Program-made: the position numbers and the translations under genes
Assembly (NCBI GenBank): GCA_029432795.1
Contig: JARNMJ010000001.1
Span: forward strand, 62,001-126,000
Direction of reading: 5' to 3'
Length of the DNA: 64,000 nucleotides
Origin: Pontiellaceae bacterium B12219
GTDB taxonomy: Bacteria; Verrucomicrobiota; Kiritimatiellia; Kiritimatiellales; Pontiellaceae
The notes under the pieces: generated by a model
Told to the model about the DNA's origin: nothing
Database searches by the model: none
Seen by the model: only the letters and a program-made list of their open reading frames with translations
Shown here: positions 30,169-59,501 of the stretch, in pieces
Numbering within the stretch: the first letter of the stretch is position 1
Layout: each line of letters opens with the position of its first letter

Positions 30169-32121
30169 ATGCTCGATACCGAAACCAAACGCCGGATTGA
30201 TTCCTGCCGTGATATTCTCGTGGGCAAAGTGCCCGACCCGAAAAGCCAGGTGGAACAGATCACCATTGCCCTGATCTATAAATTTATGTCCGACATGGAT
30301 GCCGAATCGGTTGAGCTGGGCGGCAAACGGAAATTCTTTGCGGGCGACTACCGCAAATATGACTGGTCGCAGCTCATGGCATCGAACATGGGCGGGCACG
30401 ATGTGCTGCACCTTTATTCCGAGGCCATCACCAAAATGAGCCAGAACACCGGGTTGCCCGAACTCTTCCGCGACATCTTTAAAAACGCCTTTCTGCCCTA
30501 CCGCGATCCCGAAACCCTGCGTAGCTTCCTCAAGGAAATCAACGTTTTCACCTACGACCATTCCGAAAAACTCGGCGACGCCTTTGAATATTTGCTCTCC
30601 GTTCTCGGTTCGCAGGGCGATGCCGGGCAGTTCCGCACCCCGCGCCACATCATCGATTTTATGGTCGACGTCATGGATCCGCAGAAAAACGAATCGATTC
30701 TCGATCCCGCCTGCGGCACCGCCGGATTTTTGATCTCATCCTACAAACACATCCGCGCCGCCAATACCAAGAAACGACTCGGTGATAAACTGACCGCCGA
30801 CGACAAAAAACGGCTCGTCAAAAATATCCACGGCTACGATATTTCGCCCGACATGGTGCGCCTTTCGCTGGTGAACCTGTATCTGCACGGCTTCACCGAG
30901 CCGCACATCGAGGAATACGACACGCTCACCTCCGAAGAAAAGTGGAACGAGCTTTCCGACGTCATTCTTGCCAATCCGCCCTTCATGTCGCCGAAAGGCG
31001 GCATCAAACCGCACAAGCGGTTTGCCGTGCAGGCCAAGCGTTCTGAAGTGCTTTTCATGGACTATATCGCCGAGCACCTCACGCCCACCGGGCGCGCCGC
31101 CGTTATTGTCCCCGAAGGCATCATCTTCCAAAGCGGCACGGCCTATAAAGCACTGCGCAAAATGCTCGTTGAACAAAGCCTCGTCGCCGTCGTATCGCTC
31201 CCCGCAGGCGTCTTTCAGCCCTACAGCGGCGTCAAAACCTCCATCCTGATCATGAACAAGCGCCTCGCCAAAAAGCGCGACGATATCCTTTTTGTGAAAA
31301 TCGAAAACGACGGATTCGGCCTTGGTGCCCAGCGCCGCGAGGTTTCCGGCGAACAGCTCACCGAAGCCGCCGAACTGCTGAAGAAATTTTTTGGAGGGGC
31401 GCAGGCCTCTGCGACCGCGGACGGCGAGGCCGCCATCCCTCCACATCTCGCCCTCGCCGTGCCCAAAAAACAGATCGCCGAAAACGGCGAATACAACCTT
31501 TCCGGTGAGCGGTATAAAGTCGCCGAAATGCTCAGTTCGGATTATCCACTGGTTGAACTCGGAGAGGTGTGCAATCTCATCGGAGGAGGAACGCCATCCA
31601 AAAAGGATGCATCTTTCTGGGAGAATGGATCCGTTAAATGGATTTCCTCAAAACATATCAATGATCAATTCCAGGTTATCGGTTCAGAATTGATTACAGA
31701 GAAAGCGGTTCAGTCATCTGCAACCAAAGTTGTTCCCAAAGGTTCTACAATTCTCATTACGAGGGTTTCTGTAGGGAAGTTTGCATTTGCAGATGAGGAT
31801 TATGCAGTAAATCAGGATTTAACAGGTTTGGTTGTTAAAGCTGAGAGCCAACTCAATCCTAAATATTTATTTTGTATTTCAAAGCACCTTGCTGAAATTA
31901 TTGAACGGAGTGCGGAAGGGATCGGAGTTCGTGGAGTAACGCGGAAGTTTCTTTCCTCTCTTCAAATCCCGCTGCCGCCGCTGGCGGTGCAGCAGGAGAT
32001 CGTGGCGGAGATCGAGGGGTATCAGGAAGAAATTACGAATTACGAATTAGAAATTACGAAGTGCCGCAAAAAGATTTCCAAGACGATCAACCGGGTGTGG
32101 GGTGAAGATGAAGAAGGATAA
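30169..32121 (+). CDS. hsdM: Type I R-M methyltransferase fused to one target-recognition domain, locus 1
   Basis: A 650-residue protein. Residues 1-440 are HsdM: DPACGTAGFLISSY (SAM motif I, ~179), the catalytic NPPF near residue 268, and VIVPEGIIF. Residues ~455-650 are a single HsdS target-recognition domain followed by a coiled-coil helix (GEVCNLIGGGTPSKKD..IPLPPLAVQQEIVAEIEGYQ). Near the C-terminus an AATTACGAATTACG repeat is translated in frame as EITNYELEITK. There is no full hsdS nearby. The fused protein could give specificity as a dimer, as in M-half-S systems. It overlaps the four-helix gene by 14 bases. Confidence 0.9.
   Translation: MLDTETKRRIDSCRDILVGKVPDPKSQVEQITIALIYKFMSDMDAESVELGGKRKFFAGDYRKYDWSQLMASNMGGHDVLHLYSEAITKMSQNTGLPELFRDIFKNAFLPYRDPETLRSFLKEINVFTYDHSEKLGDAFEYLLSVLGSQGDAGQFRTPRHIIDFMVDVMDPQKNESILDPACGTAGFLISSYKHIRAANTKKRLGDKLTADDKKRLVKNIHGYDISPDMVRLSLVNLYLHGFTEPHIEEYDTLTSEEKWNELSDVILANPPFMSPKGGIKPHKRFAVQAKRSEVLFMDYIAEHLTPTGRAAVIVPEGIIFQSGTAYKALRKMLVEQSLVAVVSLPAGVFQPYSGVKTSILIMNKRLAKKRDDILFVKIENDGFGLGAQRREVSGEQLTEAAELLKKFFGGAQASATADGEAAIPPHLALAVPKKQIAENGEYNLSGERYKVAEMLSSDYPLVELGEVCNLIGGGTPSKKDASFWENGSVKWISSKHINDQFQVIGSELITEKAVQSSATKVVPKGSTILITRVSVGKFAFADEDYAVNQDLTGLVVKAESQLNPKYLFCISKHLAEIIERSAEGIGVRGVTRKFLSSLQIPLPPLAVQQEIVAEIEGYQEEITNYELEITKCRKKISKTINRVWGEDEEG
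32030..32060 (+). repeat. AATTACG repeat inside the hsdM-TRD 3' end
   Basis: Three to four units of the phrase AATTACG or AATTAGA in tandem, translated in frame in the fused HsdM. A related stretch (AATTTTTCATTCACAATTCG) follows the four-helix gene at 32472-32501. Confidence 0.75.
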
Positions 32122-32461
32122 TGTGGTTCAGGAGAAGAGCTATGCATTTGCAGTTCGGATTGTCCGGCTTTACCAGCATCTGACTGCCGAGAAAAAAGAG
32201 TTTGTACTTTCAAAGCAGGTGTTGCGCTCAGGCACGAGTATTGGTGCAAATGTCGAGGAGGCTATCGGTGGGCAATCACGAGCTGATTTTATTTCAAAGC
32301 TGGCGATTTCGTACAAAGAAGCCCGCGAAACTAGTTATTGGCTCCGTTTGCTGAAAGACACGGATTATTTGACTGAAACCGAATTTGTGAGCATTTATGC
32401 CGATGCAGAGGAATTATGCCGGATCATCGGAGCCATTCAGAAATCTGCAAAAGGAAGCTGA
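32108..32461 (+). CDS. Four-helix-bundle protein (S23/Avd-like), copy 1
   Basis: A 117-residue protein of the family first seen as 23S rRNA intervening-sequence ORFs (S23) and related to the Avd protein of diversity-generating retroelements. Signature residues: YAFAVRIVRLYQHL, QVLRSGTSIGANVEEAIGGQSRADFISKLAISYKEARETSYWLRLL. No known enzymatic role; basic four-helix bundles of this type bind nucleic acid. It lies within the type I locus between the hsdM tail and a second tail remnant, with AATTACG-type repeats on both sides. A relative is in locus 2 at 51392-51748. Confidence 0.88.
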   Translation: MKKDNVVQEKSYAFAVRIVRLYQHLTAEKKEFVLSKQVLRSGTSIGANVEEAIGGQSRADFISKLAISYKEARETSYWLRLLKDTDYLTETEFVSIYADAEELCRIIGAIQKSAKGS

Positions 32462-32465
32462 CTTC

Positions 32466-32603
32466 ATGTCATTCATAATTTTTCATTCACAATTCGTAAT
32501 TGATCCGCCGGAGCAGGCGCTGGTGGCGGCGAACCGCGAGCTGATCGCCCGCTTCGAGGAAAAGATTAAGCAAACCATTGCCCGCGTCTGGGGGGAAGGG
32601 TAG
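32466..32603 (+). pseudogene. Remnant second C-terminal tail of the HsdM/S protein
   Basis: An open frame whose last 30 residues (EQALVAANRELIARFEEKIKQTIARVWGEG) are the usual coiled-coil tail of type I S/M-TRD proteins. They parallel the end of the gene upstream (KCRKKISKTINRVWGEDEEG). The first residues are repeat-derived. It probably marks the original gene end, separated from its body by the four-helix gene. It may be silent or translated as a short peptide. Confidence 0.7.
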
Positions 32604-44553: not shown

Positions 44554-45258
44554 TTAAATCAGCGATAGTTCGAGTCTATGTTTTCGCTTTTTCCAGTCGG
44601 GCATGGATTTTTCAAGAAGGGTGTAAAAGGCTGGGCTGTGGTTGTGGTGCTGCAGATGACACAGCTCATGAGTTACGACGTAATCAATACATGCTGCAGG
44701 AGCGCGAATCAGGTCAATATTCAGTGTTAACCGACCGTTTTCGGAAAGACTGCCCCAGCGGGTTTTCATTCGTTTGATAACCAGCATGGGTTTATTCAGT
44801 CCCATTCTTTCAAATTTAGGCCAGCAGCGCTCGAACGCCTCGGTGAATTTTATCTGAGCCTTTTCGGTGTACCATTGATCCAGCAGGGATTGGGTGATTT
44901 GAGGTGTGGGAGAACCGTTGACAGATATCCGGAAATATCCGCGAACCAGCTTAACACTGCATTCCCCGGCCTGAAGAATTTTAAGCCGATACTGGCGGCC
45001 CAAATAGAGATGTGTTTCTCCTCCTATATATTTTCTTGGCGGAGTTCGCGGCTCAAACTGCTGGAAATAGTCCAACTGACGAACAATCCAGCGCCCTTTT
45101 CGTTGCACTCTTCGGGCAACCTCTTCCGGTTGGATTCCATTCGGAGCTTTAACCCGGATGCGTTGATCGGGGTAAACTTCGATCTGAAGCGTTTTCCGTG
45201 GCGACTGAATCACTTCAAATTTCAGGAGTCGGCGACCATATTTTAGCTGATACTGCAT
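44554..45258 (-). CDS. YgjP/SprT-like metalloprotein
   Basis: A 234-residue DUF45 protein with the metal motif VVTHELCHLQHHNHSPAFY near residue 190 and MKTRWGSLSENGRLTLNIDLI before it. The start at 45258 is four bases after the hsdR stop, so it is the last gene of the locus 2 operon. YgjP genes next to hsdR are frequent in bacteria. A protease function is usually assumed but unproven. Confidence 0.9.
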   Translation of the reverse strand: MQYQLKYGRRLLKFEVIQSPRKTLQIEVYPDQRIRVKAPNGIQPEEVARRVQRKGRWIVRQLDYFQQFEPRTPPRKYIGGETHLYLGRQYRLKILQAGECSVKLVRGYFRISVNGSPTPQITQSLLDQWYTEKAQIKFTEAFERCWPKFERMGLNKPMLVIKRMKTRWGSLSENGRLTLNIDLIRAPAACIDYVVTHELCHLQHHNHSPAFYTLLEKSMPDWKKRKHRLELSLI

Positions 45259-45262
45259 GGTT

Positions 45263-48200
45263 CTATTTTCCGGAGCGGCTGCGGGCAATGCGCATGGTGC
45301 TTTTGATCAACTCGTCCATTTGTTCCAGCGTGAGATCTATACTCTTAGTGTCACGGACTTCATCAAAGAGATAATCATCAATTTCATTGATAGCCTGTTT
45401 CTGGGCATCCTCATCCTCCCAGAAATGAACCAGGGTCAGATGGGGAGCCAGTATTTTATGGATGGCCGAGGCGGTTTCGGCAGCCAGCTCTTCATTGGTT
45501 TCACCGAAGAGCGGTTTAATGATTCCGAAGTAGGCCATGGCATCAGCATTTCCGGTTAAGGCCGCTGGAATATCATCATGGTGCTTGGTTACAATCCTGT
45601 TGCGGATATCGGAGACTTTTTCCAGATATTCCTGACCGGAAATCAGCTTGGCGCGAAATTCATCAATCGCATCCTGAATCAGCTTGGAAAATTTTGAGTA
45701 GAAAGCCGGATCTTCATCCATTTTTTCCGTAATGACCTTTTTGGTCGCATGGGCAATGGCATCGGCCTTGGCTCCGTCCGGTTTTTTGGTCGTGTAAACG
45801 CCCATATCTTCTTTCACTGCGCCAAAGCTTGCATCGTCGAAGATGTTGACCGGTTTATTCAGCTGAATGGCTTCATTCGCCTGAATATGCGTATCCAGCA
45901 ACTTTTTAATTTTCGGTTCATAATCCCGGTAGTCGATGGATTCGGCATAACGCAGCTTTACCGAAGCGCGGAGTTTGTGAAACCGCTTTAAATCGGTTTT
46001 ATACTGCTCCAGTTTCTGATCTGAAATTTCGGTCACAAACCGTTCGCTGGAGAGAGCGATACCTAGTGTTTTGCTGAAGTCCGTAAGACGGCTGTAAAAA
46101 TCATCACGGATATCGTCGTCAGCCAAGAGCTGTTCGTAGGCCTCTTCATCATAGGCGTTTTTCACTTCTTTGAAGAGATCCCATAAATCCGAGTAGCGCT
46201 GTGGCAACTGGTCAATTTGGGATTGGATGGAGGTCAGGGTTCCTGCCAGATCATTTTCATCAAATCCTTCAAAGGCATCATACATTGTAAGTGCATTATC
46301 CAGTTCACCAAGCAAACCGACATAATCGACCACATACCCAAAGTCCTTGTCATCATGAATTCGGTTCACTCGGGCAATGGCCTGAAGGAGGGTGTGTTCC
46401 TTCAAGGATTTGCAGAGATAAATAACCGCATTGTTCGGGGCATCAAAGCCTGTGAGCAGTTTGCTGACGACGATCAGGATTTCCGGATCTTCACCGAATT
46501 TAAACTGGTTGATGACCTGTTTGTTGTATTCCTCCTCGCTGCCGTAGCGGGACATCATCTTGTTCCAGAAGCGGATCACTTCATCCGTCGGTTCATCATC
46601 TGTTTCTTCATAGCCTTCGCGGGCATCGGGGCCGCTGATGATCACCTCGCATGAAACGGTGTCCAGCTCATTCAGGAAATCACGGTACTGCATCGCAACC
46701 GCCTTGCTGGGGGCAACCAGCTGTGCCTTAAAGCCGGTTCCCTGCCAGGTTTTACGGTAATGCTCGCTGATGTCGTAGGCGCGCATATACACGACCTGTT
46801 CAGTTTTGTTCAGCATTTCCGCACGGGCATATTTCTTTTTCAGGTCGGCCTGTTGTTCCCGGGTCAGACCCTTGGTATGGCGGTCAAACCAGAGGTCAAT
46901 CGCGGCTTCGTTCTGCTCCATTTCCACCAAACGGCCTTCATAGAGCAGGGGAACCACTGCGCCGTCCTCTACTGCCTGGCCAATAGAATAATGCGGTTCA
47001 ATCAGTCCGCCGAATTTAACGAAATTGTTTTTTTCCTCTTTCATTAGCGGGGTGCCGGTAAATCCGATATAGCAGGCTTTCGGGAACATTTGGCGCATGC
47101 GGGCGGAAAAGGAACCGAACTGAGTGCGGTGGCTTTCATCCACCAGAACGAAGATATTCGGCGAATCGTCCTGGAACGACCGCACTTTCATCGCCTTGTC
47201 AAATTTATGGATCAGGGTGGTCACGATGCCCGCCTTGTGGGTAGCCACCAACTCCAGCAGATGACGGCCGGATGATGCACGTTCCGGGTTCAGGCCACAG
47301 GCGGCAAAGGTGTTGCCCAACTGCCGATCCAGATCTTCGCGGTCGGTCACTAACACAATCCGGGGATTGGAAATGTCGGGATCCAGCGCCAGATTGCGTG
47401 CCAGCATCACCATGGTTAATGATTTGCCCGATCCCTGCGTATGCCAGATCACGCCGCCGTTCCGTTGACCTTCACTGTTTTGCTGTTTGATACGCTCCAG
47501 TGCCGACTGGATGACAAAGAACTGCTGGTAACGGGCGATCTTTTTAATTCCGCCGTCAAACACCGTGAATTTAAATACAATCTCCAGTAGTCGTTCCGGT
47601 CGGCACAATGCAAACAACGCTTTATCCTGTTCCGTAACCAGCCGATCTCCCTCACCTTCCAACCCTTGGAAAAACGTCCGAGCCGCCGAAAACTCACCGG
47701 AAAACAATCGGTCTTTATCTTCGTCCGACAGTAAGGTGTTAACAGCAGTTTCAATCGGCAATCGGCAATCATCAATCGGCAATGCCGTCTCTTCTTTCCA
47801 CACGCCCCAAAACTTTTTGCCGGTTCCAACGGTTGCATACTGCGCTTCGTTTTTGCTGACGCCCATCACCAGCTGGGCATAGATAAACAGCTTCGGGATG
47901 AAGTCATCGCTCTGGTTCCGGATCGATTGCGAGATCGCCTGGTCGATTTCAATATCCGGTGCTTTGCACTCGATGACGGCCAGCGGAATGCCGTTTACGA
48001 AAAGAACGATATCCGGGCGGGCGGTTTCCGTGCTGCGGGTGCGCTCCACGCTGAATTCCGGTACCACATGGAAAATGTTGTTTTTCGGGTTTTTCCAGTC
48101 GATGTATTGCAGGTTAAAGCTCTTGGAATCGCCCTCAATCGACTGCTCCAACGCCGTCCCCAGCGTGATTAAATCGTAAATCGCTTCATTGGTTTTCTGC

Positions 48201-48466
48201 AGGCCGTCATATTTAACGTTTTTCAGCTTCTGGATGGCCGATTGGATATTCTCCTCGCTGAAGAGATATTCATTCCCCTTGTAGGCGATGCGATTAATTT
48301 TCTTCAGCTGTTCGCGCAGCGTATTTTCAAGCAGCACATTGCTTTGCTTGCCCTGACGGTCAGCCAATGCATCTGCCGGACTCAGGAATTCATAGCCCGA
48401 GTTGATCAGCGCCTGGAGTGCCGGGATCTGTGAAAGATATTTTTCATTGAAGTGGAAAGGGCTCAT
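45263..48466 (-). CDS. hsdR: Type I restriction enzyme R subunit, locus 2
   Basis: A 1067-residue HsdR of the EcoR124/EcoAI class. The start at 48466 (MSPFHFNEKYL) has GAGGTG upstream. The N-terminal nuclease domain contains RPDIVLFVNGIPLAVIECKAPD (D..ExK, residues ~155-180). Helicase motifs follow: Walker A WHTQGSGKSLTM near residue 344, DESH near 442, GFTGTP, and QAIARVNRIHDDKDFG. The C-terminal helical domain ends SIDLTLEQMDELIKSTMRIA. It pairs with HsdM/HsdS at 51.8-56.7 kb. A perfect TTCCAA palindrome is inside at 47657-47671. Confidence 0.95.
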   Translation of the reverse strand: MSPFHFNEKYLSQIPALQALINSGYEFLSPADALADRQGKQSNVLLENTLREQLKKINRIAYKGNEYLFSEENIQSAIQKLKNVKYDGLQKTNEAIYDLITLGTALEQSIEGDSKSFNLQYIDWKNPKNNIFHVVPEFSVERTRSTETARPDIVLFVNGIPLAVIECKAPDIEIDQAISQSIRNQSDDFIPKLFIYAQLVMGVSKNEAQYATVGTGKKFWGVWKEETALPIDDCRLPIETAVNTLLSDEDKDRLFSGEFSAARTFFQGLEGEGDRLVTEQDKALFALCRPERLLEIVFKFTVFDGGIKKIARYQQFFVIQSALERIKQQNSEGQRNGGVIWHTQGSGKSLTMVMLARNLALDPDISNPRIVLVTDREDLDRQLGNTFAACGLNPERASSGRHLLELVATHKAGIVTTLIHKFDKAMKVRSFQDDSPNIFVLVDESHRTQFGSFSARMRQMFPKACYIGFTGTPLMKEEKNNFVKFGGLIEPHYSIGQAVEDGAVVPLLYEGRLVEMEQNEAAIDLWFDRHTKGLTREQQADLKKKYARAEMLNKTEQVVYMRAYDISEHYRKTWQGTGFKAQLVAPSKAVAMQYRDFLNELDTVSCEVIISGPDAREGYEETDDEPTDEVIRFWNKMMSRYGSEEEYNKQVINQFKFGEDPEILIVVSKLLTGFDAPNNAVIYLCKSLKEHTLLQAIARVNRIHDDKDFGYVVDYVGLLGELDNALTMYDAFEGFDENDLAGTLTSIQSQIDQLPQRYSDLWDLFKEVKNAYDEEAYEQLLADDDIRDDFYSRLTDFSKTLGIALSSERFVTEISDQKLEQYKTDLKRFHKLRASVKLRYAESIDYRDYEPKIKKLLDTHIQANEAIQLNKPVNIFDDASFGAVKEDMGVYTTKKPDGAKADAIAHATKKVITEKMDEDPAFYSKFSKLIQDAIDEFRAKLISGQEYLEKVSDIRNRIVTKHHDDIPAALTGNADAMAYFGIIKPLFGETNEELAAETASAIHKILAPHLTLVHFWEDEDAQKQAINEIDDYLFDEVRDTKSIDLTLEQMDELIKSTMRIARSRSGK
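47657..47671. repeat. Dispersed palindrome TTCCAACCCTTGGAA inside hsdR of locus 2
   Basis: Perfect copy of TTCCAANNNTTGGAA; the same 15-mer follows valS at 62156. Confidence 0.88.
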
Positions 48467-48636
48467 AAACACCTCAGATATTAAACCGCAGATCAGCGCC
48501 AATGGTCGCCAATGCGTCTTGGTTCTTTAATTTATCAGGTTGACAAAACGGGATCATATTATAGCTTCCTTCATAGCGACTGGCACAGTTCGTTCCAAAC
48601 AGCGAGCTATCCTTAACGGGCCGGTCGTTCCTTTTT
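48467..48636 (-). other. 170-bp spacer between the DUF3800 gene and hsdR, with a possible gene remnant
   Basis: On the minus strand a short frame starts MIPFCQPDKLKNQDALATIGADLRFNI and stops just before the hsdR ribosome binding site. It reads openly upstream as well but has no other start. The self-complementary ATAGCTCGCTG and AGCTAT segments could fold in RNA. The 14-mer TGAGGTGTTTATGA at the hsdR start recurs at the start of the fragment gene at 49662. Nothing here is recognised. Confidence 0.35.
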
Positions 48637-49350
48637 TTACGGCCACTCCTGTATTTTTAGATCGGTGCCCTGTTTTAGCGTATTCCATATTTCCAGCCCC
48701 TTTTGCTCCATCCACTTTTCCGGCTCCTCTGTCATTCGATTAAAGCGTCCTGCCAGATAGACCATTACATCAGCCAGCTGAAGCAACCGGCTGTGGTGCG
48801 ATTGGGTGAAATAGATCGTGTCGATCAAACGGTCGATGTTCCGACCAAAATACATCTCGGTGGCTCCCTGCATTTTAAACTGCGAAAAATCCACAATGGA
48901 GCGGGCCACTTCATCTTTTTCATAGTCGCCGAAAACCATTCCGTAATCAGAATTTTTATCCAGGTGGTCGCAGACCCGTTCAAGAAAAAGCATTAAGCCA
49001 AGCCGGTATTCCGGTTCCGGATAGCGGTATTTTGTTTTGTGGCGCTGGACATCGATGGTCACCAGCTGGACAGGAATTTTATGTTCAATCACCACCGATG
49101 CCAGATCTTCAAGCAGTTGGATCCGTTCCGATGCTTTTCGCTTCTTGAATACGCCTTTCCGATGCCACAGCTCTTTGCCATGAATTTCCGTATCCTTGAT
49201 GAGAACCGACGAGCCGAAAAAATTATGCTGAATCCGGGCCAGTACATTTTCCAGCGGCAGCAGCTTTTCTTCCGGAACCATGATCCCGCCGATATGAAAG
49301 AAGGGCGACTCCTCCGAATATTTGTTCTCATCAAAATAGATAAAATGCAT
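48637..49350 (-). CDS. DUF3800 protein
   Basis: A 237-residue protein starting MHFIYFDENKYSEESPFFHIGGIM, with the RNase H-like acidic residues of DUF3800 (YFDE near residue 7, VFGDYEK near 139, LQLADVMVYLAGR near 195). DUF3800 proteins are recurrent in phage-defence regions and prophages. It is part of the minus-strand locus 2 operon, between a Schlafen-like fragment and hsdR. Confidence 0.85.
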   Translation of the reverse strand: MHFIYFDENKYSEESPFFHIGGIMVPEEKLLPLENVLARIQHNFFGSSVLIKDTEIHGKELWHRKGVFKKRKASERIQLLEDLASVVIEHKIPVQLVTIDVQRHKTKYRYPEPEYRLGLMLFLERVCDHLDKNSDYGMVFGDYEKDEVARSIVDFSQFKMQGATEMYFGRNIDRLIDTIYFTQSHHSRLLQLADVMVYLAGRFNRMTEEPEKWMEQKGLEIWNTLKQGTDLKIQEWP

Positions 49351-49362
49351 CGTCCCGTTCCG

Positions 49363-49662
49363 TTATTGAACTGATTGTTGAGAAGGGCTGAAAAAGAAAG
49401 ACCCACCAGAATTGAGCATGCGGGGCAGAGGCTTGGCGGGTATGCTGCTTTTGAAACTATACGAATTTGGTGTGGTGTCAGTTGTGGGTGTGGAGGGACT
49501 TGAACACCCAAATATGGAGCACGAGGGCAAATGTTGCATATTTTGCAACAATTCGCTTCCTGTAGTGAATACCTCCACCGGAGTGGAATATGCAAAATTT
49601 GCATATACTATTTCCGTGCGCCACGACTGCTTCCATTCAATATTCTGGGATTCTTTATTCAT
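49363..49662 (-). pseudogene. Truncated Schlafen/AlbA_2-type gene start fused to unrelated sequence
   Basis: The first 17 residues, MNKESQNIEWKQSWRTE, match the N-terminus of AlbA_2 (Schlafen-type, AAA_4) DNA-binding proteins, which usually continue with YLKWICGFANAQGG. Here homology stops after IV and the rest is non-homologous. The DNA behind it contains two strong palindromes: TGTTGCA/TGCAACA (49532-49550) and ATATGCAAAATTTGCATAT (49588-49606). GAGGTG precedes the ATG. Best read as a decayed defence gene. Confidence 0.6.
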
Positions 49663-49679
49663 AAACACCTCAATGGGTT

Positions 49680-49812
49680 AACCAGGAAAGATACGAAGTA
49701 CACGAAAAGGGCGGGGATATTTTTTAGCCACAAAAAGGCACAAGAATTCACAAAAACAGGTTTTCTTGGAATGCGGGATGGATTTTGGCCGCAAGAGAAC
49801 GCAGAAATCGCA
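49680..49812. repeat. ACACGAAAAGG / CACAAAAAGGCACAAG repeat spacer
   Basis: Intergenic phrases such as AGATACGAAGTACACGAAAA, AGCCACAAAAAGGCACAAGA and AACGCAGAAATCGCAAAG form an imperfect tandem of a ~10-base unit. Similar phrases occur at 4203-4238, 51272-51295, 53000-53027, 54020-54070, 54388-54420, 55606-55638 and 56008-56040. Confidence 0.6.
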
Positions 49813-49835
49813 AAGATGGTATTGAGTGTTCATGC

Positions 49836-51203
49836 TTAAGAGAGGGTTTCTGTGAGTTCAATACGTTGAGGATATTTTGTAAAAATACCAAATGCGTTAT
49901 AACAACTTCGCTGAATTTCGCTGAGGATATTGTCATCCATGGTTCGGTTTCTACGTGCTTCCATGGAATATGTGTGGTCATTGTTGAGACGATCCATTAC
50001 GCCGCTTTGGTCTAAGTCCATTAAAATGAAATACTCATTAACGAAACGAAATATACCGGCTGTTGGTTCTGTTGTAATCGATGATTCCTGCCAAGCCATA
50101 TGTTTGCGTTGGGCACTCATAATATGCTCATAGGTTTTGGGCTGTTTAAGCCGCAACATTACCAAGAAGCAAATGTGGATGAAATGAAGTCTACTGCTTT
50201 GAGGAACAGGTGTATTACTTACGACGGCCATTACACGGTGATGAGCTTGCAATTGTTGGCGGAGAGTCAAGTTGAGTTGTTGGGATAGCTCTCCGAATGT
50301 GTAGGCCGGTGATTCTTTAACCAACCAGTTGTTCATCCATGACTGTTCAGGGTCAAAATCCTGAAAGAGTAAGTCCGCAAATTGGTGTGGATTTGGATTG
50401 GGCAGGGTGAATGTTTCGTCAAAGAAACGCTGGAGATATGTTGCTGCATCAAAGTCATGTCCATACACCGCTTTAATGGAATGTATGAGTTGTCCCGTAT
50501 CCGTAGAGATAATGAACTTGATGCCGTCTACATCGAAGAGATGCTTGATGCGTTCCAATAGTTCGATCGCAAAGGTCGGGCGGCAACGGTCAAGTTCATC
50601 GATGAAAATGAAGATCGGTAGCGGCTGGTTGCCCCCGACCTTTTCAATCAGTGCTTTCAGTTCGGTTGTGAATGTTTGACGCTCCTGTTGTTTCTTAATC
50701 TGCTCTTCGACGAGTGTGCCGCCGAGGTCGATGAGATCCGTTTCTGTCTCGGGAGAAAAAATGTCACAGATATCTTTTGCTCCATCATCCCCGAGTATCT
50801 TGCGGAGGCCTGCCTTGGCTGCTATTCCGCCAAGCCGGAGGGCAATACGACCACCTTTTTTCTTAATACTTTCAATTAATTCCTGATCGTCATTTAGGTA
50901 AGATTGTAATGCCTCTGCACAGGTGCCAAGTAAGGAAGTGAGGGGGTCGTCTTCCGAATCGTTATCCCACGCATTGTATTCAACAACAGGATGTGTGTCT
51001 TTGATCGATGCAGCCCAGCGATTAACAAATAAGGATTTTCCCGTGCCCCATGCTCCGTTTACGTTAAGCACGAAGTTAGAATCATTAGCCTTGAGTGCAT
51101 TCGTTAAAAACTCGGCGTACTGTTCCAGCGTTCCGAAAACATCATTCTCCCAAACGTCGGCGGTGATTAGTGGAGTTTTGTCTCTACGTTTGAATTCAGT
51201 CAT
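49836..51203 (-). CDS. KAP-family P-loop NTPase
   Basis: A 455-residue protein with a KAP domain: Walker A NGAWGTGKSLF near residue 54, Walker B IFIFIDELDRCRP near 199, and the KAP-typical long insert between them. KAP inserts often contain membrane helices; a weak one may be GRIALRLGGIAAKAGL. Prokaryotic KAP NTPases are frequent in defence islands, where they are proposed to act at the membrane. It is transcribed with the locus 2 R-M genes, downstream of the four-helix gene. Confidence 0.88.
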   Translation of the reverse strand: MTEFKRRDKTPLITADVWENDVFGTLEQYAEFLTNALKANDSNFVLNVNGAWGTGKSLFVNRWAASIKDTHPVVEYNAWDNDSEDDPLTSLLGTCAEALQSYLNDDQELIESIKKKGGRIALRLGGIAAKAGLRKILGDDGAKDICDIFSPETETDLIDLGGTLVEEQIKKQQERQTFTTELKALIEKVGGNQPLPIFIFIDELDRCRPTFAIELLERIKHLFDVDGIKFIISTDTGQLIHSIKAVYGHDFDAATYLQRFFDETFTLPNPNPHQFADLLFQDFDPEQSWMNNWLVKESPAYTFGELSQQLNLTLRQQLQAHHRVMAVVSNTPVPQSSRLHFIHICFLVMLRLKQPKTYEHIMSAQRKHMAWQESSITTEPTAGIFRFVNEYFILMDLDQSGVMDRLNNDHTYSMEARRNRTMDDNILSEIQRSCYNAFGIFTKYPQRIELTETLS

Positions 51204-51245
51204 TATTCACATCCTATCGGATGGAGGGGCAGATGTTGTCCGCCC

Positions 51246-51264
51246 GGTCGCACAGCGTGCGACC
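51246..51264. repeat. Hairpin GGTCGCAC/GTGCGACC
   Basis: A perfect 8-bp stem with a three-base loop in the spacer before the KAP gene, flanked by GTCCGCCC and CTCCAGG. No T run, so a terminator is unlikely. Confidence 0.6.
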
Positions 51265-51300
51265 CTCCAGGCCTTTTCGTGTATTTTGTGTTTTTCGTGG

Positions 51301-51402
51301 TTACTCCTCGTTCGCGATATTCACCCGCCAGGTGCCGGTGAGCAGTTTCTGCATAAGGCCGCGCAGGGATTCATTGATCAGTGTACATTGTTCATTGAGC
51401 AT
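51301..51402 (-). pseudogene. Duplicated C-terminal tail of hsdS
   Basis: A 33-codon frame: repeat-derived start MLNEQCTLINES, then LRGLMQKLLTGTWRVNIANEE and stop. The RGLMQKLLTG.WRV part repeats the end of HsdS upstream (RGLMQKLLTGEWRV). Over 38 bases the DNA (51326-51363) is 32/38 identical to 51868-51905. The four-helix gene lies between the two copies. It probably represents the displaced end of hsdS. Confidence 0.85.
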
Positions 51403-51748
51403 TGTTTTTCGCGCTCCTTACGGTTGAAAACAGGATTTTGCCCAATTCATCGGCGTCGGCATGAATGCTGTTAAAAACCTTTTCTTCGATGTATCCGGTA
51501 TCTTTGAGCAGGTTCAGCCAATATTGGGTTTCCAGACATTCCTTGTAGGCAATGGACATTTTTGCGGCGAATTCCGGCTTGGAGATTGCGCCGATGGCTT
51601 CGGAAACATTTGCGCCAATCGAGGTGCCGCAACGCAATAGCTGTTTTGAAAGAACATATTCCTTATGTTCTTTGCAGAGCCATTTGTAGGCCTCCACAAT
51701 CCGAATTGCAAAGGCGTATGCTTTGTCATATGTAACATTGTTTTTCAT
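51392..51748 (-). CDS. Four-helix-bundle protein (S23/Avd-like), copy 2
   Basis: A 118-residue relative of copy 1 in locus 1: YAFAIRIVEAYKWL, YVLSKQLLRCGTSIGANVSEAIGAISKPEFAAKMSIAYKECLETQYWLNLL. Family as for copy 1. It is inserted at the 3' end of hsdS, with a different repeat type (TTCATTGATCACTGAAC and relatives) on each side at 51370-51404 and 51781-51860. Its last codons lie within the downstream repeat. Confidence 0.88.
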   Translation of the reverse strand: MKNNVTYDKAYAFAIRIVEAYKWLCKEHKEYVLSKQLLRCGTSIGANVSEAIGAISKPEFAAKMSIAYKECLETQYWLNLLKDTGYIEEKVFNSIHADADELGKILFSTVRSAKNNAQ

Positions 51749-51780
51749 TGTTATTTACCGCCTTTGCTGGTCTCCCTTTT

Positions 51781-51860
51781 CATTGATCACTGAACACTTC
51801 TTTCATTGATCACTGAACACTTCTTTCATTGATCACTGAACAATGATCATTGTTCAGTGA
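51781..51860. repeat. Tandem 23-bp repeat CATTGATCACTGAACACTTC... plus inverted half
   Basis: Two full 23-base units (51781-51803 and 51804-51826) and a third partial unit (51827-51841), followed by an inverted version TGATCATTGTTCAGTG. The repeat supplies the last ~15 codons of hsdS. A related stretch is on the other side of the four-helix gene (51370-51404). Confidence 0.9.
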
Positions 51861-52982
51861 AAACACTCGCCATTCACCGGTCAGCAGTTTCTGCATGAGG
51901 CCGCGTTTTTGGGTTTTGTATTTGTCCGCCAGTTTTTTGAGCAGGACGATTTCCCGTTGCGCCGTATTCAGGGTTTCGGCAATGGCTTTTTGTTCGTCGA
52001 GTGGGGGGAGGGCGACTTTGAGATTTTTTAGATCTTTTGAGTAAACATGTGGCTGCGCGCCTCCTGATTGCAATGCATAGATCCGATGTTGGAGTGACTT
52101 CAGCAAGTAGTAGTAGAATTTGGTGTTACCATCACCAACTGAAACCACATTGCAGTCAGATGCCCATAATGGATAATCGTGAAACCAGACAAAGCCGGCA
52201 TATGCGCCAGAAGCACTAATGGTAATACATTCTTCCGTATGCGTTGGGGTGTTATGAAAATAGGCATAGGTTTGTCCTCCTGCCACTACAGGGATTTTCC
52301 CTTTAGCAATTTTTGCTTTAATGAGAGGTGAACCTTTTTCGATGGTGATTTCTTTGCCGTATAGTTCCCCCAGCTTCACTTTTCGCCAATCGGAATTGTT
52401 TTGGTTGATGAGTTTGTTGAGGAGCCATTTGAAACGCTTTTTTTGGGCTTGGATGAGGCGTTCGGTGGTGGAGATGGCCCGGTCCCATGTCGACAGCACA
52501 TCCGCAATCGCTTTCTGTTCCTCAAGTGGGGGGAGGGAAAGGGGAAAGCGGTTTATGGTTTTCAGACTTAAGCCTGATTTTGCACCCGAATCATTTAATC
52601 GATTCAAGAGGTTTCGTTGAGGTTGACTGGCGAGGTAGAACGCTAGGAATTTTGGATGTACATCCGGTGATTCTACTCTGACAAGTGCGACGTGTTGATT
52701 TACATAGGCCTCTTCGATTTCGTTTTCAACAAATCCAATTTTTCCCAACTCGGCAGTAATTGAAATGAGAATGTCATTTTGTTTAACGCGGGTTCTAATT
52801 CCTTCTGATGAACCGGAGGGTAGTTTAACGTATTTTTTATCATGAAATAGAAGTCCAATGCCCTCTTTGGGTAAATTGGTCATGCGCAAAAAAAGCGCTC
52901 CTTTATCTGAGTAGTAAGATGCCCATCCACGAGATCCGCTCGTTATATTGGGGGCTATCTTTCCTAGGGTAGTTGTATTCAT
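51810..52982 (-). CDS. hsdS: Type I specificity subunit with two TRDs, locus 2
   Basis: A 390-residue HsdS. The start at 52982 (MNTTTLGKIAPNITSGSRG) begins TRD1, followed by the first conserved region (LSLPPLEEQKAIADVLSTWDRAISTTERLIQAQKKRFKWLLNKLI) near residues 150-195. TRD2 follows (WRKVKLGELYGKEITIEKGSP) and the second conserved region is VALPPLDEQKAIAETLNTAQREIVLLKKLADKYKTQKRGLMQKLLTG. The final ~17 residues (VFSLNNDHCSVINERSVQ) are encoded by the tandem repeat and replace the usual end. TRDs determine the DNA sequence recognised, which cannot be read from the protein. Confidence 0.92.
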   Translation of the reverse strand: MNTTTLGKIAPNITSGSRGWASYYSDKGALFLRMTNLPKEGIGLLFHDKKYVKLPSGSSEGIRTRVKQNDILISITAELGKIGFVENEIEEAYVNQHVALVRVESPDVHPKFLAFYLASQPQRNLLNRLNDSGAKSGLSLKTINRFPLSLPPLEEQKAIADVLSTWDRAISTTERLIQAQKKRFKWLLNKLINQNNSDWRKVKLGELYGKEITIEKGSPLIKAKIAKGKIPVVAGGQTYAYFHNTPTHTEECITISASGAYAGFVWFHDYPLWASDCNVVSVGDGNTKFYYYLLKSLQHRIYALQSGGAQPHVYSKDLKNLKVALPPLDEQKAIAETLNTAQREIVLLKKLADKYKTQKRGLMQKLLTGEWRVFSLNNDHCSVINERSVQ

Positions 52983-53031
52983 CAGACTCTCTTTTGTGAT
53001 TCGTTGTGCCGTTTCGTGGTTATGCTGAAGT

Positions 53032-53121
53032 TTAATCCCGTTGAATTGCGGCGAGCTTTTCAGCCATTTCCTTCCGGACCTTGGAAAGTTCAATTTCGAG
53101 GTCGTTGCTTTTATTCGTCAT
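53032..53121 (-). pseudogene. Duplicated C-terminal tail of hsdM
   Basis: A 29-codon frame (MTNKSNDLEIELSKVRKEMA.. ending AIQRD) overlaps the end of dinD. It repeats the last residues of HsdM at 54073 (ELEIELSKVRKEMAEKLAAL). About 67 bases are ~84% identical (53039-53105 versus 54077-54144). The dinD gene lies between the copies. An analogous tail remnant follows each four-helix gene. Confidence 0.82.
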
Positions 53122-53968
53122 CGTTTTCTTTCAGCTTTTTCAGCTGCTCCCGTTCAAGTTTTTTAGCGCTGGTTTCCGGGGTGGGCAGATCTTCGGGCAT
53201 GGTGCCGCCCAATTCTTCGATAGTCTGGCGGACTTTTGCGCCGACTTCGTAGTGTGTTTTGTTGGCGTTCTTTTTGCCTTTGATGTTATCGCGGCGAAGT
53301 TTTTCGTCGGTTTGCGTGGCGCGGAAAAGGTTGGCGGCGAGTTCGGTGCTGCCCATATAGTCGAGGATTTTATGGCTTTTCTTTAATCCCTTCTTTGCAT
53401 GGATGCCTTTGTTGTCGAGTCCGCCGTAGAGCCCTTTGTAACCATGGTTCTGAAAAATGGCAAAATCGATGCCGCGTTCCACACCGGCCTGCTGGGCGGC
53501 TTCGGCTAACTGCGAGTTGTGCTCTGCTAGTTCTTTGCGCAAATAGAGCCGTTTTTCATCTTCTTTTAGCTTTTGGAAGTCCTGATCGTCGGACAGTTCC
53601 TGTCGGCGGGTCTGGATGGCGAAATAGGTCTGTCCGTTGGCAATGACCGGTTTGGTGGGATCGCCATTCTGAACGATGAGGTAACAGGCATAGCGGGAGA
53701 GGGCGTAGGAGTCCATTTTACGTTGACCCCCTTTGCCGATTTCGATCATCTCGTGCACCTCCACGAAATGATCCGAAATCTGTTGTCCGCTTTCTTTGCA
53801 GGCCGTTTTGGCTTTTTCGATGACCGGTAGGAAATTGCGGTATTCCGCATAGTCCAGAACCTTGCCAAGCTGGCGCGCCCACCAGAATTCCTGATCGAGC
53901 TCGTTGATCTGTTTGATCCCTTCAAAGGTCCTGTGGTGCACTTTTTCGACATATTCTTCGTGGTTCAT
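53111..53968 (-). CDS. dinD: DinD-like DNA damage-inducible protein
   Basis: A 285-residue protein with the DinD/Bro-N-like arrangement: VHHRTFEGIKQINELDQEFWWARQLGKVLDYAEYRNFLPVIEKAKTAC at the N-terminus and QRKMDSYALSRYACYLIVQNGDPTKPVIANGQTYFAIQTRRQE near residue 80. In E. coli DinD inhibits RecA activities. It sits between hsdM and hsdS and is followed by a duplicated hsdM tail. GTCGAATTCGAC lies 23 bases upstream of its start. No LexA-type box was identified with confidence. Confidence 0.92.
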   Translation of the reverse strand: MNHEEYVEKVHHRTFEGIKQINELDQEFWWARQLGKVLDYAEYRNFLPVIEKAKTACKESGQQISDHFVEVHEMIEIGKGGQRKMDSYALSRYACYLIVQNGDPTKPVIANGQTYFAIQTRRQELSDDQDFQKLKEDEKRLYLRKELAEHNSQLAEAAQQAGVERGIDFAIFQNHGYKGLYGGLDNKGIHAKKGLKKSHKILDYMGSTELAANLFRATQTDEKLRRDNIKGKKNANKTHYEVGAKVRQTIEELGGTMPEDLPTPETSAKKLEREQLKKLKENDDE

Positions 53969-53990
53969 GCTTCGGTCTCCGTTTTAAACT

Positions 53991-54004
53991 GGTCGAATTC
54001 GACC
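53991..54004. promoter_or_regulatory. Palindrome GGTCGAATTCGACC before dinD
   Basis: A perfect 14-bp palindrome 23 bases upstream of the dinD start. It shares its core and the neighbouring GTTTTAAAC with the site before the KilA-N gene at 32649. Confidence 0.55.
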
Positions 54005-54072
54005 CCTTTTCTGTGCCTTCAGTTTATTTCGTGGCTTTCTTTTGTAAATCTTTGTGCCTTTTCGTGGCTAAC

Positions 54073-55590
54073 CTACCGTTGCAGGGCGGCGAGTTTTTCG
54101 GCCATTTCTTTCCGAACCTTGGAAAGCTCGATTTCGAGCTCGTCAATTTCCTTTTGTACGACGTCGATGTCGATTTCAGCCTCTTCTTCGAAGGTGTCGA
54201 CATAGCGCGGAATATTGAGGTTAAAGTCGTTTTCCTGAATCTCGTCGAAGGGGGCGAGGTAGGAATATTTTTCAATCGCCTTACGGTTGCGGTAGGTATC
54301 GACGATTTTGTTGATGTGTTCTTCGGTCAGGGCGTTCTGGTTTTTGCCGGGTTTAAATTCCTTGCTGGCGTCAATGAAAATTACATTCCTTTCGCGTCCT
54401 TTTGCGTTTTTCGCGGTTCCTTCCCGACTCCGGTCAAAGATCAGTACGGCCACGGGAATGGAGGTGGTCTGGAACAGGTTGCCGGGCAGGCCGATGACGG
54501 CGTCGAGCAGATTGTCTTCAATCAGCTTCTGCCGGATACGGCCTTCGGCAGCACCACGGAACAGTACGCCGTGCGGAACGACGACAGCGACACGGCCCTC
54601 TTTTTCGACGGCCGATTCAATCATGTGGCTGATAAAGGCATAGTCGCCCTTGCTCTTGGGCGGTACCCCGCGCCAGAAGCGGTTGTAGCGGTCGGAATCG
54701 GCCTCTTCCGCGCCCCATTTGTCGAGCGAGAAGGGCGGGTTGGCCACGACGACGTCGAATTTCATCAGCCGGTCGTTTTCAACGAGAGCGGGCGACGTCA
54801 GTGTGTTGCACCATTCAATGCGGGCGCTGTCGAAGCTGTGCAGGAACATGTTCATGCGCGCCAGTGCCCAGGTGGCCCCGTTGACCTCCATACCGAACAG
54901 GGCAAAGTTGCGGTCGCCCACTTCCCGTGCGGCTTCAATCAACAGCGTGCTTGATCCACAGGCTGGGTCGCAGATGCGGTCGCCGGGTTTGGGGTTGGCG
55001 AGTTTGGCGACGAGCTGAGAAACCTGGAAGGGGGTATAGAATTCGCCGGCCTTTTTCCCGGCATCGGTGGCGAAGCGTTCAATGAGGTAGAGATAGGTAT
55101 TGCCGATCACATCTTCCGAAACGCGGCTGGGCGACATGTCGAGCTGGGGTTTGTGAAAATCCTCCAGCAGCATTTTCAGGCGGCGGTTGCGGTCTTTAGT
55201 GCGGCCCAGGTTGGACTCGGAGTTGAAATCAATATTGCGGAATACGCCGTCGAGTTTGGCTTTGTTGGCTTCTTCGACCGCATCCAGCGCTTCGTTGATG
55301 AGTTCGCCGATGTTGGCTTCGTTACGTTTTTCATAGAGATCGTAATAACCCGCGTCCGGAGGAAGGACAAAACGTTCGCGTTCGAGTTTTCTGAGAATAC
55401 GGGCATCATCCTCGCCATATTGCTTACTGTATTCGGCATAGTGATCTTTCCAGACATCGGAAATATATTTGAGGAAGAGCATCACGAGGATGTAGTCCTT
55501 ATACTGAGCCGGATCGACCACGCCCCGGAAGGTGTCGCACGCCGCCCAGGCTGCGTTGTTGATGTCTTTCTGTTCAATCGTTGTGCTCAT
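54073..55590 (-). CDS. hsdM: Type I R-M methyltransferase subunit, locus 2
   Basis: A 505-residue HsdM: N-terminal helical domain (AAWAACDTFRGVVDPAQYKDYILVMLFLKYISD), GEFYTPFQVSQLVAKLA, DPACGSSTLLIEA (SAM motif I near residue 208), and NPPF near residue 284. A short insert GTAKNAKGRERN (near residue 395) is encoded by a CGCGAAAAACGCAAAAGG repeat phrase. The C-terminus ends in a coiled coil that is partly duplicated after dinD. It modifies DNA with HsdS. Confidence 0.95.
   Translation of the reverse strand: MSTTIEQKDINNAAWAACDTFRGVVDPAQYKDYILVMLFLKYISDVWKDHYAEYSKQYGEDDARILRKLERERFVLPPDAGYYDLYEKRNEANIGELINEALDAVEEANKAKLDGVFRNIDFNSESNLGRTKDRNRRLKMLLEDFHKPQLDMSPSRVSEDVIGNTYLYLIERFATDAGKKAGEFYTPFQVSQLVAKLANPKPGDRICDPACGSSTLLIEAAREVGDRNFALFGMEVNGATWALARMNMFLHSFDSARIEWCNTLTSPALVENDRLMKFDVVVANPPFSLDKWGAEEADSDRYNRFWRGVPPKSKGDYAFISHMIESAVEKEGRVAVVVPHGVLFRGAAEGRIRQKLIEDNLLDAVIGLPGNLFQTTSIPVAVLIFDRSREGTAKNAKGRERNVIFIDASKEFKPGKNQNALTEEHINKIVDTYRNRKAIEKYSYLAPFDEIQENDFNLNIPRYVDTFEEEAEIDIDVVQKEIDELEIELSKVRKEMAEKLAALQR
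54388..54420 (-). repeat. Repeat phrase translated inside hsdM
   Basis: On the minus strand it reads GAACCGCGAAAAACGCAAAA and continues GGACGCGAAAGG. This is the same GCGAAA/CGCAAA wording as the repeats around the GxxExxY gene. It adds GTAKNAKGRER to the protein in frame. Confidence 0.65.
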
Positions 55591-55622
55591 ATGATGTACT
55601 CCTGTGTTAACCGCGAAATGCG

Positions 55623-56042
55623 CTAAAGTCGCGAAAAGTTTGTGTTGGCTATACGGACGATTTCAGCTTTCGGATGGCTTCCGAAATTTACGAGTAAGCC
55701 CAGTTTAAGTCCGGTTGCTTTTAAATAGTTTATCAGTTGAGCTTTGTGTTCGGGGGCAACCGCTTTGACCGCTTTGAGTTCAGTGATAATTTTTCCGTAG
55801 CAGATGAAGTCCGGTTTGTAGGTTTGTTTTAAAGGATCGCCTTTATAGGCGAGTTTTAATTCGGGTTGTGCTTGAAGGGGTATTTTCCGCTTCTGAAACT
55901 CGAATTCGAGGCATTCCTGATAAACTGCTTCGAGAAACCCGCATCCCATTTCTTTGTACACAGCAAAGATCGCGCCCTGAATGGCATAACATTCGTCCGG
56001 ATAGAGTATGTTTTTGCGTGTTTCGTGATTTTCGCGGTTCAT
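55623..56042 (-). CDS. GxxExxY protein
   Basis: A 139-residue PD-(D/E)XK-like protein of the GxxExxY family: AIFAVYKEMGCGFLEAVYQECLEFEF carries the name motif, followed by KLAYKGDPLKQTYKPDFICYGKIITELKAV (D..ExK) and LINYLKATGLKLGLLVNFGS. Function unknown, though a nuclease-like fold is likely. Its first ~10 codons (NRENHETRKN) are repeat-derived, and CGCGAAATGCGCTAAAGTCG follows its stop. It starts by ATGA overlap with the half-HsdS and precedes hsdM. Confidence 0.9.
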   Translation of the reverse strand: MNRENHETRKNILYPDECYAIQGAIFAVYKEMGCGFLEAVYQECLEFEFQKRKIPLQAQPELKLAYKGDPLKQTYKPDFICYGKIITELKAVKAVAPEHKAQLINYLKATGLKLGLLVNFGSHPKAEIVRIANTNFSRL

Positions 56043-56677
56043 ATCCCATTTCCTCTAAGGGTTGCGGTTTCTGACGCAACCCGCGCCAAAATTCCTGAAA
56101 TCAGTGTTTTCTTCTTATCCCTCAGCTGATCCATCAAACGCTGTTCACGGTCGGCCAGTTTGGCAATGGCCGTGATTTCCCGCTGTTTTTCAAGCGGGGG
56201 AAGGGTGATCGGAAGGTCTTCCAGTGCGTCGCGCCCGATCATCCGTACCGAAGTGCCTTTGGCATGACGATCAAGCCATGCTTGTGCTTCGGGCTGATTA
56301 ATAAACCAGCAGATGTATTCGGGCATAACGTCGGGTGCTGTTACACGGATTTGGAAAAGCGGCGCAGCGCAAACGGTAGGTTTTTCAATGGTTGAAAGTA
56401 TTGAGCAGGTGTTTGTGCGGCCCCTGGAGCGAAAGATGAGGTCTCCTGCTTTCAGAAGGTATTGGGGTTTAATATCGTTTCGGTTAACCGTCGCTGCAGC
56501 GGAGGGGTTAATGAAAAAGGATTCGGTGATATCCTTCATCTGCAGGACGGGTACCGTGCCGTCAGGATCCTCGTTCAGTTTGCCCCTGAACGGGTGTCCT
56601 GCTCGAATTTCGGCTATGGATTTTAAGGTTTTCAATGCAGTAATCTCGTTTTGTTGATCGGTTTGTATATAATTCAA
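56039..56677 (-). CDS. Single-TRD type I specificity protein (half HsdS)
   Basis: A 212-residue protein with one target-recognition domain (SIAEIRAGHPFRGKLNED..VLQMKDI..SRGRTNTCSI) and one conserved coiled region (DLPITLPPLEKQREITAIAKLADREQRLMDQLRDKKKTLISGIL). It is the first gene of the locus 2 operon. Such half-subunits can act as dimers with HsdM. A full hsdS is also present downstream, so this operon encodes two specificity options for one HsdM. Confidence 0.85.
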   Translation of the reverse strand: MNYIQTDQQNEITALKTLKSIAEIRAGHPFRGKLNEDPDGTVPVLQMKDITESFFINPSAAATVNRNDIKPQYLLKAGDLIFRSRGRTNTCSILSTIEKPTVCAAPLFQIRVTAPDVMPEYICWFINQPEAQAWLDRHAKGTSVRMIGRDALEDLPITLPPLEKQREITAIAKLADREQRLMDQLRDKKKTLISGILARVASETATLRGNGI

Positions 56678-59464: not shown

Positions 59465-59501
59465 TTACGAATTACGAATTACGAATTACGGATTACGAGT
59501 T
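59465..59501 (+). repeat. Tandem TTACGAA repeat directly before valS
   Basis: About four copies of the 7-base phrase ACGAATT/ACGGATT occupy the 36 bases immediately 5' of the valS ATG. No ribosome binding site remains. Confidence 0.85.

Follow-up and report, generated by a model that had tools for sequence, protein, structure and literature searches.

The window analysed here, a stretch of 64,000 nucleotides from Pontiellaceae bacterium B12219, carries on its minus strand hsdS, the type I RM specificity subunit gene (51810..52982; identified by sequence and Pfam Methylase_S, E = 6.2e-41), and behind it, between hsdS and a KAP-NTPase gene, a small gene (51392..51748, minus strand) for an S23-family, four-helix-bundle protein of 118 amino acids. 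The protein gives whole-protein profile matches to PF05635 (E = 1.5e-30, positions 2-105 of 106) and TIGR02436 (E = 4.1e-31, positions 2-108 of 109) and also matches PDB entry 2rld (E = 1.7e-32), a solved chain closer to it than 2gsc (XCC0516), the solved pentameric relative from the same family (PMC4990558).

As the original prediction had it, related repeat arrays flank the S23 gene on both sides where hsdS ends. Repeat and palindrome searches place the left arm, an array of CATTGAT/CACTGAA-type units, at 51778..51860 (minus strand), where it includes a perfect 28-nt palindrome (51833-51860) and 2.8 tandem copies of TTTCATTGATCACTGAACACTTC (51778-51842, 100% match). The hsdS frame continues into this array (...LLTGEWRVFSLNNDHCSVINERSVQ), which encodes the final codons of the gene, FSLNNDHCSVINERSVQ. 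The right arm (51369..51404, minus strand) overlaps the final codons of the S23 gene and is an inverted relative of the left arm; the two are mirror images, 77% complementary over 35 nt, and both are also detected as period-7 arrays. The arrays had been recognised as related beforehand; their inverted orientation and 7-nt period emerged only from the present analysis.

Two hsdS tails frame this arrangement, a first one joined to the gene (RGLMQKLLTGEWRV; 51864..51905, minus strand) and a displaced second one (LRGLMQKLLTGTWRV; 51322..51363, minus strand), into which the right array runs and which was delimited by sequence comparison and by the relative G016. The identity of 32 of 38 bases claimed for them (51868-51905 and 51326-51363) is correct and extends to 35 of 42 over the full tails, with a local score of 28, where 500 shuffles gave 15 at most. 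The new C-terminus of hsdS is likewise confirmed by its reading frame, which continues into the left array. In RNA fold predictions for this cassette, the left arm folds on itself and the far arms are unpaired with each other. No Rfam match was found at 50900-52600.

A second cassette of similar layout, on the plus strand, sits where a different type I RM gene ends. Its left arm, (ATTACGA)n, is read in the host frame as EEITNYELEIT (32031..32060) and is followed by a replaced host-gene end, CRKKISKTINRVWGEDEEG* (32062..32121), the stop of which falls within the start of the S23 gene (32108..32461; 58% identical to the first in alignment); then come an inverted right arm (32472..32501; locus L004, inverted score 20) and the displaced host-gene end, ..PPEQALVAANRELIARFEEKIKQTIARVWGEG* (32503..32603). 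In this cassette the left array precedes the first host tail; at hsdS the order of the two is the other way round. The original prediction had included neither this second cassette nor the gene-less forms and parallel GxxExxY cassettes described below.

The hsdS locus belongs to a defence-like cluster (44554-56677) of hsdR, DUF3800, KAP NTPase (with weak QatA similarity), S23 and hsdS genes, which also holds a dinD-like Bro-N gene, hsdM, a GxxExxY gene, a half-length hsdS and a probable metallopeptidase gene. A (CAATCGG)n heptamer array without an S23 gene lies within the hsdR frame (47752-47783), where it is read as ALPIDDCRLPIETA, and the GxxExxY nuclease gene of the same RM operon (55623-56042) has an N-terminus, MNRENHETRKN, read from a CACGAAA-type repeat. 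Immediately 5′ of a valS-like gene (59465-59502) there is a (TTACGAA)n array with neither an S23 gene nor an inverted partner.

Host-gene relatives and the second tail

The relative G016 has a single hsdS tail, and what comes after it is the sequence found behind the second tail of the window; 151 of 176 positions are identical on the body side and 103 of 143 on the far side, where the match is partly a palindrome and may be a dispersed repeat. Four relatives (G005, G008, G009 and G012) have one hsdS tail each with no S23 gene directly behind it, and the host gene of the second cassette, including the end displaced in the window, is unbroken in G012 and G014. Both sites are thus occupied in the window and free in relatives. 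This comparison with empty sites, which had been proposed as a check, revealed no relative with two tails but no S23 gene.

The cassette would have entered the 3′ end of hsdS within a defence operon, and the second tail would be either a long duplication made at entry or a leftover of an older hsdS allele. Since the tail variants GEWRV and GTWRV each occur as the sole tail of hsdS genes in some relatives, recombination between hsdS alleles explains the double tail at least as well, and the displaced tail may, to judge from these sequences, be what remained of an older allele after allele replacement. With array similarity and low-complexity matches discounted, protein-level tail duplication was clear only at the two RM loci of this window among 169 S23 loci examined, and not in the 167 others; host-tail duplication, which the original prediction had proposed looking for at other S23 genes, was therefore rejected as a rule for S23 loci.

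Inverted arms and placement of S23 genes

Eight S23 genes are present in the source genome, most of them flanked by related, mirrored arrays whose unit is different each time (AGGTCGA, GGTTAAT, ATTACGA and CTGAAAC, for example). Across the window's class, S23 genes were present in 51 of 58 genomes searched, giving a sample of 96 loci (95 in the inverted-match count), with GxxExxY nuclease genes and ParE genes of the same genomes as comparison families. A second sample drew 80 loci, 76 of them usable, from many phyla; a profile of all eight proteins was too diverse for a scan of the collection, and the narrower S23 alignment used instead tilts this sample towards one broad S23 branch. Each upstream flank was compared with the reverse complement of its downstream flank, a match of at least 18 counting as inverted arms, and re-paired flanks of different loci served as the null.

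Inverted arms occurred at 44% of the 95 class loci, against 1.5% of re-paired flanks, and at 58% of the 76 cross-phylum loci, against 1.3%, so arms match in a locus-specific way; at this threshold, inverted arms were lacking in about half of S23 genes. Period-7 arrays were found in 33% of upstream and 38% of downstream flanks in the class and at 46% of cross-phylum loci on each side, compared with 0% around GxxExxY genes and 0-3% around ParE genes, and other short periods accounted for 1-6% of S23 sides on average. None of the ParE genes (0%) in the same genomes had inverted arms. GxxExxY (TIGR04256) loci had them in 62% of 32 cases (1.9% when re-paired), with units of about 9-10 nt and no heptamer period. 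Most of ten S23 loci on cyanobacterial plasmids had a heptamer array on at least one side. The matched repeats anticipated at S23 genes elsewhere do exist and, together with the S23-free, single-tail relatives, support the proposal of a small mobile cassette that inserts at the ends of genes and keeps the host protein intact. Within 399 kb of the source genome, 13 of 18 heptamer arrays were without an S23 gene, which means that such arrays are not confined to S23 loci.

The left arm starts at a median of −3 nt from the upstream stop codon (37 of 70 within 12 nt), a closeness partly to be expected from the general shortness of operon spacers. Upstream and downstream alike, about 80% of neighbours are co-directional with the S23 gene, and the stop codon often lies within the arm, for example at gmk and cas6. 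The cassettes thus sit at gene 3′ ends, mostly in co-directional runs, where an arm often supplies the stop codon or last residues of the neighbour.

Between genomes, the similarity of arms rises with that of S23 proteins, from 0.19 in unrelated pairs to 0.555 in close pairs (Mantel r = 0.264; 0 of 2,000 permutations as high), a correlation that is due in part to shared descent at the same place. Related S23 proteins with different neighbours have a mean arm similarity of 0.317, against 0.189 for random pairs, and arms within one genome are hardly more alike than arms between genomes (0.211, 23 pairs, versus 0.189). The arm unit differs by locus and partly follows the S23 subfamily.

Changing junctions and movement of the element

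The same junction exists in several states. In Flavobacterium succinicans, an S23 cassette begins at the gmk stop codon in the gmk-nadD junction; in other Flavobacteriia, the two genes are separated by a bare 8-24 nt, by an S23 gene with the same or a different heptamer, or by a hairpin that lacks a gene and either consists of heptamers or resembles the arms of GxxExxY cassettes. These states imply at least 14 changes on the tree of the two neighbour genes, and the sister species L274 and L275 differ in state (support 100/95). The S23 genes at this junction are under purifying selection (dN/dS 0.04-0.22). Two Flavobacterium species (L299 and L300) carry an unrelated insert of about 0.6 kb between gmk and nadD.

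Type I-D CRISPR operons of cyanobacteria vary in a similar manner. Anabaena sp. 90 has an S23 gene and a long heptamer array between cas6 and cas4, where Dolichospermum sp. UHCC 0315A lacks S23 and has a different inverted-repeat sequence instead, even though the flanking genes are 98% identical (800 of 819 bases in cas6, 586 of 599 in cas4). Between the same two genes, Pseudanabaena sp. ABRG5-3 has a short ATTACGA array alone and Nostoc sp. UHCC 0302 a short gap. The Dolichospermum sequence (L419, 2237-2483; GTAGGTTGGGTTGACGCAAGGAAACCCAAC...) also provides the cas6 stop codon. S23 genes were likewise seen within CRISPR-Cas operons on cyanobacterial plasmids (L412, L413 and L417), in the orders cas6-S23-cas4 and cas10-S23-cmr3.

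Evidence for movement comes from the Desulfobacterales, two of which (L194 and L210) share a nearly identical S23 element in unrelated surroundings, with GTAACTACTCAGGTGGATAG... at one end and inverted GTAACTACTCAGGTATTTAG at the other. Recent copies in this group share exactly the same ends (GTAACTACTCAGGT...), whether they are full or internally deleted. Perfect 8-bp target duplications flank a 453-bp copy (L352; TATTTTAA on both sides), a 483-bp copy (L357; TTAAATTC) and a 187-bp internally deleted copy (L363; GATGATTC), and a gene-less hairpin with the same ends (L364) has 7 of 8 bases duplicated. These duplications flank the arms, and the arms were therefore inside the unit that moved. 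Several other copies in these genomes show weak or no target duplication, and there was no general excess of duplications over 92 S23 elements, as expected if most insertions are old. Gene-less or deleted copies were seen at L351, L363 and L364, in addition to the hairpins at gmk-nadD. The S23 gene of L367, and probably that of L357, looks interrupted by a small nested heptamer hairpin.

IS66 elements, which have GTAA ends and make an 8-bp duplication, were the first suspect as mover and were set aside after three of four genomes gave no PF03050 match, an absence that is weak evidence since the genomes are mostly MAGs. We found no transposase with the same ends as the Desulfobacterales element, which had no terminal-repeat (TIR) match and no tblastn relative in viral contigs and was not found among plasmids; a search of phage records with a Flavobacterium S23 query yielded no S23 relative.

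Explanations and known elements

With cassette anatomy, locus-specific arms, gene-less forms, a location at gene ends and, in a single lineage, mobility all observed, the S23 gene behind hsdS, together with its two arms, probably represents a class of short mobile cassettes, each about 0.4-0.6 kb long. Counting against this reading are the heptamer arrays without S23, the S23 genes without inverted arms, the restriction of target duplications to recent Desulfobacterales copies, the failure to find a transposase with matching ends and the predicted RNA fold, in which the far arms of the window cassette stay unpaired. Such a unit would move as DNA, by cutting and joining at the hairpin ends, with the moving enzyme supplied from elsewhere. 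The S23 protein may bind the hairpin, as DNA or as RNA, and might assist the element either in moving or in residing quietly in transcripts, such a role having been proposed for the S23 ORF within the intervening sequences (IVSs) of 23S rRNA.

The rival to be taken most seriously, although we think it unlikely, puts hairpins first: slippage and template switching would make the common intergenic heptamer hairpins, template switching would keep their arms matched, and S23 would be a passenger that inserts into their loops, sitting there as in rRNA helices. This account draws on the frequency of gene-less hairpins, on the location of 23S IVSs in a helix (PMC4990558) and on the gmk-nadD junction, where the heptamer type of both arms changes jointly between species groups and the S23 gene is retained. 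It fits poorly with an arm type that tracks S23 subfamily between genomes, partly even across differing contexts, with Desulfobacterales arms that lie inside the moved unit and have target duplications outside them, and with the many one-sided arrays among those without S23 in the 399 kb of the source genome.

Gene conversion and horizontal exchange at homologous junctions, with S23 transposing almost never and the second tail in the window derived from hsdS allele recombination, seem to us a good deal less probable still. RM loci do recombine, and both hsdS tail variants exist singly in relatives. The S23 proteins at gmk-nadD belong to one subfamily in all species examined, and some of the switching between states may therefore reflect homologous exchange of the junction rather than new insertion; exchange of this kind would not place a near-identical element in the unrelated contexts of L194 and L210, or account for target duplications or for S23 loci between many unrelated gene pairs in many phyla. 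Mere coincidence in a repeat-rich genome, for which the dispersed heptamer arrays of the source genome could be cited, is refuted by the locus-specific inverted match (44-58%, against 1.3-1.5% re-paired) and its absence around ParE, and deserves scarcely any credence.

Beyond the mobile-cassette reading of the window, we tentatively put forward, at rather less than even confidence, a new class of mobile element that ends, in place of a fixed sequence, in a matched pair of inverted short-repeat arrays, which are renewed together and vary from locus to locus. S23, with 7-nt units, and GxxExxY nuclease, with units of about 9-10 nt, would be two parallel lines of this class, if not the only ones. 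The class would target gene 3′ ends, be the source of many dispersed heptamer arrays and include the 23S rRNA IVSs as its rRNA-resident members.

The IVS of Coxiella, an S23 ORF between inverted repeats within 23S rRNA, undergoes trimming by RNase III and is a suspected mobile element, and IVSs with an S23 ORF, found in Coxiella, Leptospira and others, have had an origin without agreement since the 1990s (PMC4990558). IVSs, long suspected of being mobile or selfish, resemble the cassettes in their S23-family ORF, their size of about 0.4 kb and their terminal inverted repeats; the cassette of the window is not inside a 23S rRNA gene, and its S23 ORF is bracketed by terminal inverted repeats as in an IVS. 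They differ in residing in 23S rRNA helices rather than at the ends of protein genes and, in Coxiella, in having a plain 28-bp stem where the arms of the cassettes are mostly heptamer arrays with a locus-specific unit; Gene-less forms are a further feature of S23 cassettes, as are the 8-bp target duplications of recent copies.

MITEs and mobile insertion cassettes are similarly small, with inverted ends, target duplication in recent copies, no internal transposase and deleted or gene-less copies. However, S23 cassettes carry a conserved S23 gene, and their short-repeat arms differ between loci, whereas MITEs have one terminal sequence per family. Target duplication of the MITE type amounts to the three perfect Desulfobacterales cases, without excess over the 92 elements, and the 42-nt tail duplication in the window may differ in origin.

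Heptamers are also familiar from cyanobacteria as short tandemly repeated repetitive (STRR) sequences. TAACTGA heptamers have been described in Beggiatoaceae, and for the heptamer arrays of Beggiatoaceae, cyanobacteria and Bacteroidetes no spreading agent is known (PMC4679880). Like the arms reported here, these are intergenic 7-nt tandem arrays of wide and patchy distribution, often beside start codons, but they were described as direct repeats rather than as inverted pairs around S23 genes. The terms ‘helix bundle’ and ‘S23’ are absent from that paper (PMC4679880). Our literature search, sparse on subscription journals, found no paper that joins S23 genes outside rRNA to heptamer arrays. Avd of diversity-generating retroelements is another small four-helix-bundle protein and forms a pentamer; unlike in those systems, no reverse transcriptase match was found among the eight neighbouring proteins scanned at the hsdS locus.

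S23 genes are common, and their cassettes alter how the genes that they enter come to an end, in stop codon or final residues—here a restriction specificity gene, elsewhere cas6—and link two old puzzles, the intervening sequences of rRNA and the scattered 7-base repeats. If S23 genes, rRNA IVSs and heptamer arrays are one kind of element, its movement would be testable in culturable Flavobacterium and Anabaena.
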